This document shows positions 2,239-6,804 of a DNA stretch of 7,526 nt, in pieces. The stretch is from Candidatus Latescibacterota bacterium (GTDB taxonomy: Bacteria; JAAXHH01; JABIQT01). The notes beneath the pieces are model-generated. The model ran no database searches and was not told the origin of the DNA. It worked only from the letters and a program-made list of their open reading frames with translations. Every line of letters starts with the position of its first letter. Position 1 is the first letter of the stretch. The stretch lies in contig JABIQT010000111.1 of NCBI GenBank assembly GCA_018667995.1, positions 1 to 7,526 of the forward strand, read 5' to 3'. The position numbers and the translations under genes are program-made.

Positions 2239-2269
2239 ACACCTTTATCATCGGACCGTGGATAACGCC

Positions 2270-3025
2270 ATGAACGAACAGCAGATACGACGGTTGCTTG
2301 ACGGGGTGAAGTCGGAATCCGTAAGCGTAGATGAGGCCATTGATTCTCTACGAGACTTGCCGTTTGAAGATCTCGGATTTGCGATGGTGGACCACCATCG
2401 CGCGCTCCGGCAAGGATTTCCAGAGGTCATCTATTGCGCGGGCAAGACCGTCGACCAGATCATTACAATCGCCGATAGAATAGTAACGCGAGGCGCGGAC
2501 CTGCTAGCTACCAGGGCATCTCAGGAAATCTACAATGAGGTGGCTGCACAGTTGCCGGATGCGGAGTATCATGAGGCAGCACGGGCTATAGTCTTACAGA
2601 AAGATCATACGATTCGAGGCAGAGGGCGCATACTTGTGGTGTCTGCAGGTACCAGTGATATCCCCGTGGCGGAAGAGGCAGCCATAACAGCAACCGTCAT
2701 GGGAAATGAAGTGGACAAGATCTTCGATGTGGGTGTGGCGGGCATACATCGCCTGCTCGCGCATCGAGAGATGCTTACAAGCGCGTCTATACTCATTGTG
2801 GTGGCAGGAATGGAAGGAGCCTTGGCCAGCGTCGTAGGTGGAATGGTCGCCCGACCCGTCATCGCCGTGCCTACCAGTGTGGGATACGGGGCCAGCTTTG
2901 GTGGCGTAGCTGCGCTGCTCGGTATGCTCACCAGTTGTGCCTCAGGTGTCACAGTGGTGAACATCGACAATGGCTTCGGTGCGGGATATGCGGCCAGCCT
3001 AATGAATCGAGCCGACACGCCATGA
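2270..3025 (+). CDS. larB: LarB, pyridinium-3,5-biscarboxylic acid mononucleotide synthase (nickel-pincer cofactor synthesis)
   Basis: LarB carboxylates and hydrolyses nicotinic acid adenine dinucleotide to give pyridinium-3,5-biscarboxylic acid mononucleotide, the first step towards the nickel-pincer nucleotide cofactor of LarA-type racemases. The 251 residues match family length. Visible family motifs are [13 protein letters not shown] (40-52), [13 protein letters not shown] (125-137), [11 protein letters not shown] (153-163), [15 protein letters not shown] (177-191), [13 protein letters not shown] (200-212) and NIDNGFGAG (231-239). C223 in TSCASG and E182 in GMEGAL correspond to the Cys and Glu described as catalytic in LarB. 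The C-terminal half has the PurE-like (AIR carboxylase) fold signature. It is the first gene of the plus-strand operon, and its TGA overlaps the larC ATG. I chose the ATG at 2270; a GTG four codons upstream (2258) is an alternative, and neither has a strong ribosome binding site (GTGGA at 2258-2262 is the best). Confidence 0.95.
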
Positions 3026-4149
3026 CCATTGCCTATATCGATCATATCTCTGACCTCACCGCCTATGCACTTCTAGGCGCGCTCATTGACGCCGGCGCTG
3101 CTCCAGAAGTTATAGAAGCCGCCCTAAGCCGCCGAACGGAACTCGAACTCAGGATATTACTCAGCCGGGAAGAGCGACATGGTGAAACTGTTTTGCTGGC
3201 AAGCCTGTCTCCGAGCAGCGAGGACCTCCGACTTACCAGGGAAGATCTTGATAGGTTCTCGTCCGCCTATCCTGAGATAGACAGACTGAGTGATGGCTGG
3301 ACAAAGCTCTGCGCTTCACGCGGCGAGTCTGACTCCCTCAGCGCGACTGACAGTCAAGAGGCGTTGGCGGCCATTGCGGTGCATGAGGCCGTCATCCAAC
3401 TTCAGCTCGACCGGGTTTACTGCACCAGCCTACCATTGCCCTCCGGGCTGGAACCCAATGACGCCACAGTCATGGATCTGATGCACAAACAACCTGTGCA
3501 GTTTACCGACCAGACCATACCCACATCCGCCTTGGGCGTGATCGCACTGACCACAGTATCCGATCAATATTCGCTGCCTCCAGCAGTCACATTGAGTCGA
3601 ACAGGTTGTGGTGGAAGAGAAATAGAGGATGCCCCCGGATCGGGTCTTCTGAGACTCTCCATCGGGGAACTGGTATACACCTCCGAGGCACCTCAGGAAG
3701 ATTCCGTTATGGTCGTGGAAACCAATATCGACGATATGAATCCACAGAACTACGGACATGTGATGGACCTGCTTCTGGAAACAGGAGCCCTGGACGTAAC
3801 ACTGACTCCGATTATCATGAAGAAAGGTCGTCCGGGGAACTTGCTTTCCGTCCTGGTCGATCGGCCGGGCCTTGAAGCAGTGATATCCCTCATACTTCAA
3901 GAGACCACCACTATCGGTGTGAGGACGCACGCTGTTCGCCGAAGGACGCTGGATCGGAAGATTGCCGAGGTAGCGACACCCTTTGGCACCGTGAGAATCA
4001 AGGTCGTCAGGCAGGGCAACCACGTTCGGTGTACTCCGGAATATGACGACTGCAGGGAAGCCGCCCGCGCCCATGAGGTACCCATCACAGAAGTCCAAAA
4101 TGCGGCGCGGCGTGCGGCGGACGCGATCGATCTGGATGTTCTGTTGTGA
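3022..4149 (+). CDS. larC: LarC-like nickel insertion protein (DUF111 family) with divergent N-terminal half
   Basis: LarC is a CTP-dependent cyclometallase that inserts nickel into the pincer nucleotide in the last cofactor step. The C-terminal half (about 229-375) is typical: [12 protein letters not shown] (231-241), GALDVTLTP (255-263), IMKKGRPG (265-272), ETTTIGVR (294-301) and CTPEYDDC (337-344). This corresponds to the CTP-binding LarC2 part. The N-terminal half keeps the family outline ([10 protein letters not shown] 16-25, [13 protein letters not shown] 130-142, GCGGREI 195-201). It lacks the usual GISGDM (here HISDLTAYA), the HFHEVGAVDS segment, the HGxLPVPAPAT segment (here [11 protein letters not shown]) and the TPTGAA motif (here IPTSALG). 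At 375 aa it is somewhat shorter than common LarC proteins. The start at 3022 overlaps the larB stop (ATGA), implying translational coupling; the longer open frame from 2935 lies inside larB. No frameshift is needed to read both domains, unlike in L. plantarum. Confidence 0.9.
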
Positions 4150-5882
4150 TAGCCGTGCAAGGTTTGCACTTCAGCTATACCGACCAAGACCACGCTCCCC
4201 CTACACTTCAAGACATAAATCTTTCCATACCTAAAGCCGGATATGTGGCCATACTTGGTCCGAATGGATCTGGTAAAAGTACGCTCGGACGTTGCCTGAA
4301 CGGCCTTCTCCAACCCACATCAGGGTCGGTGACGGTAGACGGATTGGATACGGCAGACGCTGAACATACCTGGGAAATACACCGTCTTGTTGGCATGATC
4401 TTTCAGAATCCCGACAATCAACTGGTTTCTACAACCGTAGAACGCGAATTGGCCTTTGGACTCGAGAACATTGGAATAGAACCCGCTGAGATACAGTCGC
4501 GTGTGGCGGAGTCTCTGGACCGATTCGACCTCGGCCACATAAAACTCCATGCTCCCCATCGTCTATCCGGTGGCCAGAAGCAACGACTGGCCATTGCGGC
4601 CGTAATGGCAATGAGACCACGGTATCTTATCTGTGACGAGCCGACGGCTCTCCTCGATCCTCGCGGACGCTCCGAAGTGATCGAGATGATCACTGCCATG
4701 CACCGTGATTACGGCATATCTGTGGTGCACATCACACAGTTTCCGGAGGAGGCCGAAGGTGCTGATCAAGTCATTATCATACAGGACGGCCGCATCGCGG
4801 TGCAGTCGGTCCCTGCTGAGACAATAGCTGATGCCGGATGCCTTCAGACCTACGGCTTATCCGTGCCCGTAGCTGTGCACGTTGCAGATAAAGTCCGCAC
4901 GAAGGGCGTCCCCCTGACATCAGGCATAGTAAGTGCCGAACAGCTGGTTCGAGCCGTGAAGCAATGGCCGCCCTCCTCAAAAAGCGCTGCACAAGAGACT
5001 GCGACCGTCGCCGTGGAACCCGCTCCTGATGCGATGGCTGAGCTAAAACAAGTTTCCTTCACATATTCTACCCATGCAAAGGCCGCAGCTGCAGCGCTTT
5101 CAGATGTGTCGATACGCATTGAACGGGGTACTTTCACAGCCCTCATAGGACCTAATGGATCAGGGAAATCCACATTGATGCAGCACCTAAACGCACTGAT
5201 TCAATCCGATCAAGGAGAGGTATTGATCGACGGCGTTTCCCTCAAAGCAAAACAGACTGACCTGGTGATAATTCGCCAGCAGGTAGGACTCGTCTTCCAG
5301 TTTCCTGAGGCGCAGCTGTTTGAAGAGACCGTCTTTCAGGACGTAGCATTCGGTCCGACAAATCTGGGAATCATGGGAGAGGCACTTAGAGATACCGTAA
5401 ACGAGGCACTCCGAGATGTACGGCTTGATCCCGATGTGTTTTCGACGCGCACCCCATTCTCCCTCAGCGGTGGGGAAAAACGGCGGGTGGCAATCGCCGG
5501 CATTCTAGCCATGAAGCCGTTATTTCTTGTATTAGATGAGCCAACCGCCGGATTAGATGCAGTGGGTATCGCACAGGTGGAGGCAATCCTCAAGAGATTC
5601 CAAGCTGCAGGTGGAACGGTACTTCTTGTTTCCCACGACATGGACTTGGTGGGACGCATGGCCGAACGCGTTATCGTCCTGGACGAAGGACGCATTGTGG
5701 GCGACGGTCCTCCACAGGAGGTCTTCGCAGAGAACGAGATTATGGAAACGACCGGGCTGCATTGCCCAACACTCAGTTATGTCCTCAGCGAACTACATGA
5801 GCTTGGGTATCCGGTGTCCGCGTGGAACTTCGATATCGATCTGGCAGCCGAATCTATTGCCGCAGCGATTGATCTGAACTAA
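4146..5882 (+). CDS. Fused two-domain ECF-type ABC transporter ATPase (CbiO/EcfA-like, LarO-like context)
   Basis: One 578-residue chain carries two complete ATPase domains. Domain 1 has Walker A GPNGSGKST (38-46), Q-loop Q87, signature LSGGQ (140-144), Walker B LICDEP (161-166, catalytic E165) and H-loop H195. Domain 2 has Walker A GPNGSGKST (335-343), Q-loop Q385, signature LSGGE (440-444), Walker B LVLDEP (461-466, E465) and H-loop H497. The segments QNPDNQLVSTTVERELAFG and QFPEAQLFEETVFQDVAFG are the pattern of energy-coupling-factor ATPases (cobalt, nickel and vitamin uptake) rather than exporters. A linker of about 60 residues joins the halves. It starts with GTG overlapping the larC stop (GTGA), so it is translationally coupled. 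Context with larB and larC suggests nickel uptake; fused ATPases also occur in vitamin-precursor transporters (YkoD type), so the substrate is inferred. No EcfT/CbiQ or substrate-binding membrane gene is in the window. Both ATP sites look functional. Confidence 0.93.
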   Translation: MIAVQGLHFSYTDQDHAPPTLQDINLSIPKAGYVAILGPNGSGKSTLGRCLNGLLQPTSGSVTVDGLDTADAEHTWEIHRLVGMIFQNPDNQLVSTTVERELAFGLENIGIEPAEIQSRVAESLDRFDLGHIKLHAPHRLSGGQKQRLAIAAVMAMRPRYLICDEPTALLDPRGRSEVIEMITAMHRDYGISVVHITQFPEEAEGADQVIIIQDGRIAVQSVPAETIADAGCLQTYGLSVPVAVHVADKVRTKGVPLTSGIVSAEQLVRAVKQWPPSSKSAAQETATVAVEPAPDAMAELKQVSFTYSTHAKAAAAALSDVSIRIERGTFTALIGPNGSGKSTLMQHLNALIQSDQGEVLIDGVSLKAKQTDLVIIRQQVGLVFQFPEAQLFEETVFQDVAFGPTNLGIMGEALRDTVNEALRDVRLDPDVFSTRTPFSLSGGEKRRVAIAGILAMKPLFLVLDEPTAGLDAVGIAQVEAILKRFQAAGGTVLLVSHDMDLVGRMAERVIVLDEGRIVGDGPPQEVFAENEIMETTGLHCPTLSYVLSELHELGYPVSAWNFDIDLAAESIAAAIDLN

Positions 5883-5904: not shown

Positions 5905-6804
5905 ATGCTTGTAGACATCCATACGAATCTGATGTGGTACCCGGATCACATGTCTGACGAGTTCGTTGAATTTGCCTATGCGGCGAAACGTGCGAAAATG
6001 CGACTCACCCCGGACGTTTACTTTGCAGGCCACGACGACAAGTACAAGAACGCATTTGATTCAACACCCGAAGCCCTGCTGGAAGCCACGTCGAACTGTG
6101 ACAAAGCCGTCGTGTTTGGCCTGAAGGCTCCCTACTGCGGCATAAACGTGCCTCAAACTATAGTTTCCGACTTCGTGGCTACCCATAGTGACCGATTTAT
6201 CGGATGGTGCTCCGTGGATCCCAATGACGACGACTGCGTGGACCAATTGGACTACAATGTCAAGCAACTCGGTTTGCGCGGTCTCAAGGTGGCGCCCATA
6301 TATCAGAATTTTGATCCGCAGGACCCACGCCATCTGCCATTGTTCAAGAGAGCAGAGAAGCTCGATATTCCCGTTATCTGGCATCAGGGCACGTCGTTCG
6401 TACGCCCGGGACCTCTGAAATATGCAAACCCAATTCAGCTGGAGGACATCGCCATTGCATGTCCGGATTTGCGTATGATGATCGCCCACATGGGGCACCC
6501 TTGGGAGGATGAGTGCGTCGTGCTGATTCGAAAACACCCCAATCTATATGCTAATGTGTCTGCGCTACACTACCGGCCATTGCGGCACTACCAAGCCTTC
6601 ATCTCAGCGCTGGAGTACGGAGTAGAGCATAAGTTGATATTTGGATCTGACTTTCCGTCTGCGACCACAGACCAGGTGATAGCGGGACAGTGGAAGGTCA
6701 ATGATATTGTTGAGGGAACAAAGCTGCCCAGGTTTCCTGATGAGGCTATACACAACATCATCTACGAGAATTGGCGCCAGTTTCTGCGGAACGACGAGCT
6801 GTAG
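5905..6804 (+). CDS. Amidohydrolase-family TIM-barrel protein (Amidohydro_2 type), substrate unknown
   Basis: The 299-residue protein has the order and spacing of Amidohydro_2 (ACMSD-like) metal-dependent hydrolases or decarboxylases. It shows DIHTN at 4-8, GLRGLKV with K128, IPVIWHQGT with H160, MIAHMGHPW with H195 and H198, and LIFGSDFPS with D249. The first-strand motif is normally HxH; here the second His is N8, while H6, H160, H195 and D249 remain. Family members bind one divalent metal and hydrolyse or decarboxylate cyclic or carboxylated small molecules. Lactone or sugar-acid hydrolysis would fit the neighbouring hydroxyacid genes, but this is only inference. It has no signal peptide, so it is cytosolic. 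It is the last gene of the lar operon, 22 bases after the ATPase stop and directly before the terminator. Its pairing with lar genes is not part of the classical lar set. Confidence 0.88.
   Translation: MLVDIHTNLMWYPDHMSDEFVEFAYAAKRAKMRLTPDVYFAGHDDKYKNAFDSTPEALLEATSNCDKAVVFGLKAPYCGINVPQTIVSDFVATHSDRFIGWCSVDPNDDDCVDQLDYNVKQLGLRGLKVAPIYQNFDPQDPRHLPLFKRAEKLDIPVIWHQGTSFVRPGPLKYANPIQLEDIAIACPDLRMMIAHMGHPWEDECVVLIRKHPNLYANVSALHYRPLRHYQAFISALEYGVEHKLIFGSDFPSATTDQVIAGQWKVNDIVEGTKLPRFPDEAIHNIIYENWRQFLRNDEL

Follow-up and report, generated by a model that had tools for sequence, protein, structure and literature searches.

A LarC with a decayed LarC1 domain is paired with an intact stand-alone LarC1 across a bacterial order: a putative nickel insertase divided in trans

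The larC gene of the window (the whole stretch of 7,526 nucleotides analysed here, from genome G000) encodes a LarC in which a LarC1 domain that has lost its conserved motifs is fused to an intact LarC2 domain, and an unlinked gene of the same genome encodes an intact LarC1 domain alone. The pairing of stand-alone LarC1 and decayed LarC is a property of the lineage. We consider it likely, at a probability of roughly 0.75, that LarC, which inserts nickel into the lactate-racemase cofactor, is divided in trans in these bacteria, such that a LarC1 gene was gained, complementary losses followed, both proteins are now needed, and the pseudo-LarC1 domain serves as a scaffold or docking surface. The features of the window are as follows:

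2258–3025, forward strand: larB, intact, 5' of larC with a 4-base overlap (NF033503, 299.6 bits, cut-off 175)
3022–4149, forward strand: larC, in which an intact LarC2 domain follows a pseudo-LarC1 domain (PF01969, 12bi alignment, AlphaFold2)
3022–3699, forward strand: decayed LarC1 (N-terminal) domain (9/34 highly conserved positions; TIGR00299 unmatched; dN/dS in relatives)
3052–3069, forward strand: GISGDM site, here DLTAYA (alignment with 12bi)
3334–3372, forward strand: HFHEVGAVDSIVD site, metal-ligand-like residues replaced (alignment with 12bi)
3448–3462, forward strand: HGxLPVPAPAT site, hairpin deleted (H178-G179 gaps; models compared)
3517–3543, forward strand: TPTGAA site, only the glycine retained (alignment with 12bi)
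3706–4056, forward strand: intact LarC2 (CTP-binding) domain (NF052512; 19/19 conserved positions; Foldseek 6bwq)
4146–5882, forward strand: fused double ECF ATPase of the EcfA1-EcfA2 type, its gene overlapping the end of larC (above cut-off for TIGR04520 and TIGR04521; synteny)
5905–6804, forward strand: amidohydrolase 2 family protein (PF04909; synteny)

The larC open reading frame runs from an ATG at 3022, where it overlaps the stop codon of larB, to 4149 and gives a protein of 375 residues. Its outline is that of LarC, since the solved full-length LarC 12bi aligns with residues 2–369 (phmmer, E 9e-37); PF01969 is matched with 203.7 bits over profile positions 131–374 only. The C-terminal half, described as textbook in the first-pass annotation, deserves the term: the LarC2 model NF052512 matches residues 229–345 (154.9 bits, cut-off 50), all 19 of the LarC2 positions that are ≥95% conserved (such as DD, MKK, and RP) are kept, and in a Foldseek comparison the predicted model matches the LarC2 structure 6bwq with a TM-score of 0.91 by target.

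The N-terminal half was examined in an alignment of the window protein and its relatives with 82 canonical LarC proteins and 12bi, the residue numbering of which is used here. At positions H134, H136, E137, D142, and D146 the window protein has S, S, A, E, and A, and at E205, T208, P209, and T210 it has I, S, A, and L, with G211 kept; H178-G179 correspond to gaps in 15 of the 15 decayed LarC proteins of the order. The absence of GISGDM, HFHEVGAVDS, HGxLPVPAPAT, and TPTGAA from this half, proposed on first reading, is thereby confirmed against both PF01969-type LarCs and a structure: the four motifs are replaced or deleted in place, and the alignment rules out that they are present but shifted. 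The window protein keeps 9 of 34 N-domain positions that are ≥95% conserved among canonical LarC (canonical mean 33.5), and the LarC1 model TIGR00299 (cut-off 90 bits) finds no match in it at E ≤ 0.001. This loss far exceeds ordinary divergence, and comparable N-domain loss occurs in 18 relatives belonging to three groups. A broken gene or frameshift is ruled out by the open frame and the confident predicted fold, and the earlier views that the gene has diverged rather than broken, and that its product, coupled to larB, probably still works, are also in line with a reading frame and synteny kept throughout the order and with dN/dS below 1.

Two PF01969 genes are present in G000 (6.06 Mb, 85% complete): the window larC and a LarC1-only gene of 270 residues at a separate locus on contig C361. 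The product of the latter scores 208.9 bits against TIGR00299 (cut-off 90) and has GISGDM, HLHEVSGLDAVVD, HGRLPVPAPG, and TPTGAA all in place; it lacks LarC2, the gene stopping after LarC1 and being followed by an arabinofuranosidase-like gene. A search of the genome for LarC2 returned the window copy only. The idea that such genomes might carry a second, canonical LarC therefore holds for the N-terminal half and fails for the C-terminal one; a second complete LarC was not found elsewhere, there being a single LarC2 per genome. One LarB and one LarE (311.4 bits) exceed curated cut-offs in G000, together with several LarA-like genes, as would be expected if the genome has just one nickel-pincer cofactor pathway. 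As LarB and LarE are single and LarA is present, there is one pathway for the stand-alone LarC1 to serve. With LarB, LarE, and LarA homologues present as in the ordinary pathway, two suggestions made earlier for the window protein, namely use of another nickel donor and production of a modified cofactor, find no support.

The order was sampled through G000 and 15 further genomes, all 15 of which were examined (16 in total); the other genomes available for comparison are related at the level of the domain only. A LarC with a decayed N-terminal domain is paired with an intact stand-alone LarC1 in 15 of the 15 resolvable genomes (14 of 15 besides G000), a result that favours the earlier suggestion that the window protein may need a partner, since the stand-alone LarC1 carrying the lost motifs occurs in every resolvable genome with a decayed LarC. 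In the sixteenth genome, G011, larC1 lies at a contig edge and the larB contig stops 94 bases past the LarB match, near the expected start of larC, and its larC is thus taken to be unassembled. Every genome of the order with an assembled larC keeps larB, the decayed larC, the fused ecfA1A2, and the amidohydrolase gene together as a cluster in this order, the amidohydrolase being 81–85% identical across the order, and the stand-alone larC1 occupies a separate locus with conserved neighbours that include HAD-type hydrolases. Each genome has one LarB and one LarE over cut-off (except G014, where LarE is in two pieces), LarA is present in all, and LarC2 is single in the resolvable genomes. The mean number of LarC1 positions kept out of 34 is 33.5 for canonical, 31.5 for stand-alone, and 12.5 for decayed proteins, the last of which keep on average 18.8 of the 19 LarC2 positions. 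The most canonical-looking decayed LarC is that of G001, with 18 of 34 LarC1 positions; the rest of the order keeps 9–13.

Of the three regions compared in one genus (12 genomes, 66 pairs), the pseudo-LarC1 domain has the highest median dN/dS, 0.333; the medians of LarC2 and the stand-alone LarC1 are 0.173 and 0.161, respectively. In the pairs examined across the order, identities are 28–35% in the pseudo-LarC1 domain, 57–66% in LarC2, and 64–72% in the stand-alone LarC1. By these figures, selection on the decayed domain is relaxed yet remains purifying, and the stand-alone LarC1 is under strong purifying selection. AlphaFold2 models of both proteins are confident (mean pLDDT 89 for the window LarC and 88 for the stand-alone LarC1, except that residues 77–100 of the latter, a loop that contains histidine, are poorly predicted), and the order of helices and strands in the two N-terminal domains is largely alike. 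The window LarC model differs in the strands of the HG-PVPAP hairpin, which the LarC1 model has, and in the HFHE loop, these elements being absent or shortened. The shared order of secondary structure thus places the losses mainly on conserved loops, with the scaffold spared. A Foldseek search with the stand-alone LarC1 model gave no solved match, 12bi being absent among the matches listed. Separately, a histidine-rich loop occurs in the stand-alone LarC1 of several deep branches; the window protein is without it. One example is:

L037, 1930–2739, forward strand: LarC1 with a histidine-rich loop at about residues 66–103 (also in L039 and L058)

Because the two proteins occur together, the pathway genes are single-copy, and the residues retained are complementary, we infer that the window LarC and the stand-alone LarC1 act together; the simplest account is that a LarC1 gene was gained first and complementary losses followed. 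The location of the two genes at different loci counts against this account, as does the occurrence of LarC1 without LarC2 in nine genomes named below. An ancestor would have gained a second, LarC1-only gene, the product of which has retained the conserved N-domain chemistry, and the larB-linked full-length LarC would then have been free to lose its N-terminal conserved loops while LarC2 stayed intact. Nickel insertion into P2TMN would require both proteins, the stand-alone LarC1 contributing the motif-bearing site, probably for nickel or substrate handling, and the window protein the putative CTP-dependent LarC2 site. The pseudo-LarC1 domain would act as a scaffold or docking surface, where contact with the intact LarC1 partner perhaps takes the place of a LarC1-LarC1 contact in the usual oligomer.

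A survey of 384 genomes, many of them fragmented, found PF01969 in 203 and a strong full-length LarC match in about 168 (by subtraction). An extra LarC1 gene accompanies full-length LarC in one of these approximately 168 genomes, G329; other second PF01969 matches in genomes with full-length LarC are fragments or small LarC2-like pieces. A second group with the pairing comprises G110, G248, G377, and G384 (five genomes of that phylum were found, and the remaining one has only a 22-position fragment), and a third is represented by G163; most of the same motif residues are lost in both groups, and in G110, G248, and G377 the decayed larC again adjoins larB. The LarC1 gene of G377 is in two overlapping frames, the pieces of which were joined for the motif count, and may reflect an assembly error or a frameshift. 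In the LarC2 of G163 (L204, 4216–5328, reverse strand) and of G386 (L231), MKK reads TRA or TRG, and LarC2 is therefore altered too in that group. The extra LarC1-like protein of G329 is itself unusual, as a TrmO N-terminal domain (PF01980, 108.7 bits) is inserted between two LarC1 segments:

L216, 4031–5503, reverse strand: LarC1-like protein with the TrmO insertion, in G329 (PF01980; a canonical LarC is also in the genome)

An intact LarC1 gene occurs in every resolvable genome with a decayed domain, as against about 1 in 168 others, which tells against the alternative that the window LarC suffices alone, with an N-terminal domain redesigned for another nickel donor or for nickel supplied directly by the neighbouring ECF transporter, and that the stand-alone LarC1 has another purpose. 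Tight coupling of the ECF ATPase to larC throughout the order would fit such a scheme, as would nine genomes with a LarC1 match and no LarC2 (G038, G053, G182, G198, G247, G253, G353, G370, and G381), by which LarC1 may serve without LarC2 somewhere and so have a role of its own. One of them is:

L067, 6374–7180, forward strand: LarC1 without LarC2 in the genome, in G038 (listed as 100% complete; larE-like and larB genes ahead)

However, no common set of metal-ligand-like residues occupies the lost motif positions across the order, and relative to dS the altered region evolves about twice as fast as LarC2. We therefore regard this alternative as unlikely. The fused two-ATPase ECF component lies directly 3' of larC in the whole order, and no membrane subunit is alongside it within the window; the protein encoded at 4146–5882 may belong to nickel uptake.

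A further alternative accepts insertion of nickel by LarC2 and a LarC1 in trans and treats the pseudo-domain as a functionless, decaying remnant. Five genomes (G063, G095, G236, G306, and G365), in which LarC1 and LarC2 are two distant genes and no pseudo-LarC1 domain is attached, indicate that LarC2 can occur without a LarC1-like domain. A functionless remnant is nevertheless difficult to reconcile with a dN/dS of 0.33, which is not near 1, or with a domain that stays nearly full-length throughout the order and two other groups and has a confident predicted fold, and we judge this reading improbable. The LarC2 of G306, where LarC1 is a separate distant gene, follows a MoaB/MogA-type molybdopterin-binding domain (PF00994, 109.5 bits):

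L209, 4660–5655, reverse strand: LarC2 fused behind a MoaB/MogA-type domain, in G306 (PF00994)

Trees were built for both halves (151 columns for LarC2), and in each the proteins of the order form one clade. An artefact, whether a contaminating contig as the source of the stand-alone LarC1 or a faulty assembly of the window LarC, might be feared for a fragmented metagenome-assembled genome such as G000 (1165 contigs, 85% complete, 4.2% contamination), but is already refuted by recurrence of the pair in the order, including genomes assembled in 7 or 9 contigs, and is highly improbable, contamination of C361 being ruled out by synteny common to the order and by the G000 LarC1 falling inside the order's own LarC1 clade.

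With respect to origin, the stand-alone LarC1 of the order is sister to the fused LarC of L005/G054, and its LarC2 groups elsewhere with modest support; because the sisters differ between the trees, transfer, as opposed to duplication, may have been the source of the stand-alone LarC1. The AU test does not reject one common origin of the pairing for the order and the second group (p 0.18 for LarC1 and 0.57 for LarC2), and so no claim of convergence is made. More tentatively, and at somewhat less than even odds in our estimation, three or more deep lineages would have a nickel insertase made from two genes, an intact LarC1 and a pseudo-LarC1-LarC2, and this arrangement would have arisen more than once. 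If that is true, the functions of LarC1 and LarC2 would be separable steps that tolerate different polypeptides.

To our knowledge, the role of the LarC1 half is still unsettled, and division of LarC in trans would make this lineage a natural two-component system in which nickel handling and CTP use could each be traced to one half or the other. The decayed protein would reveal which N-terminal residues are dispensable once a partner exists. For annotation, it is a warning that a good LarC2 score may hide the absence of a working LarC1 domain.

The structures annotated as full-length LarC (PDB 12bi–12bl) are from a species that we take to be Moorella thermoacetica. LarC of this type has the same LarC1-LarC2 order as the window protein, which keeps its LarC2 residues; however, 12bi keeps the LarC1 loops, whereas the window protein has lost them and the second gene has them. 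In Lactiplantibacillus plantarum, frameshifting yields a LarC1-only product in addition to full-length LarC, and the LarC2 of this species (6bwo/6bwq) is 42% identical to that of the window in the Foldseek alignment. The LarC1-only product would be a parallel to the present lineage, with the difference that one coding region yields both proteins in L. plantarum, whereas here there are two unlinked genes, the full-length one without LarC1 motifs. In the literature searched, no description was found of a lineage that keeps a pseudo-LarC1 domain alongside an intact stand-alone LarC1. NCBIfam models the halves separately, with TIGR00299 matched by the stand-alone gene and NF052512 by the window gene; neither model describes a decayed-LarC1-LarC2 protein paired with a LarC1 gene. 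For Anaerobutyricum, separate larC1 and larC2 genes are named in PMC7702098 (EHLA_1342/EHLA_1341), and given these genes and the separate NCBIfam models, the splitting of LarC is in itself no novelty. The Anaerobutyricum halves are likewise on two polypeptides but, compared by description only, they differ from those of the present order in having adjacent locus tags and no reported pseudo-LarC1 on the LarC2 gene.
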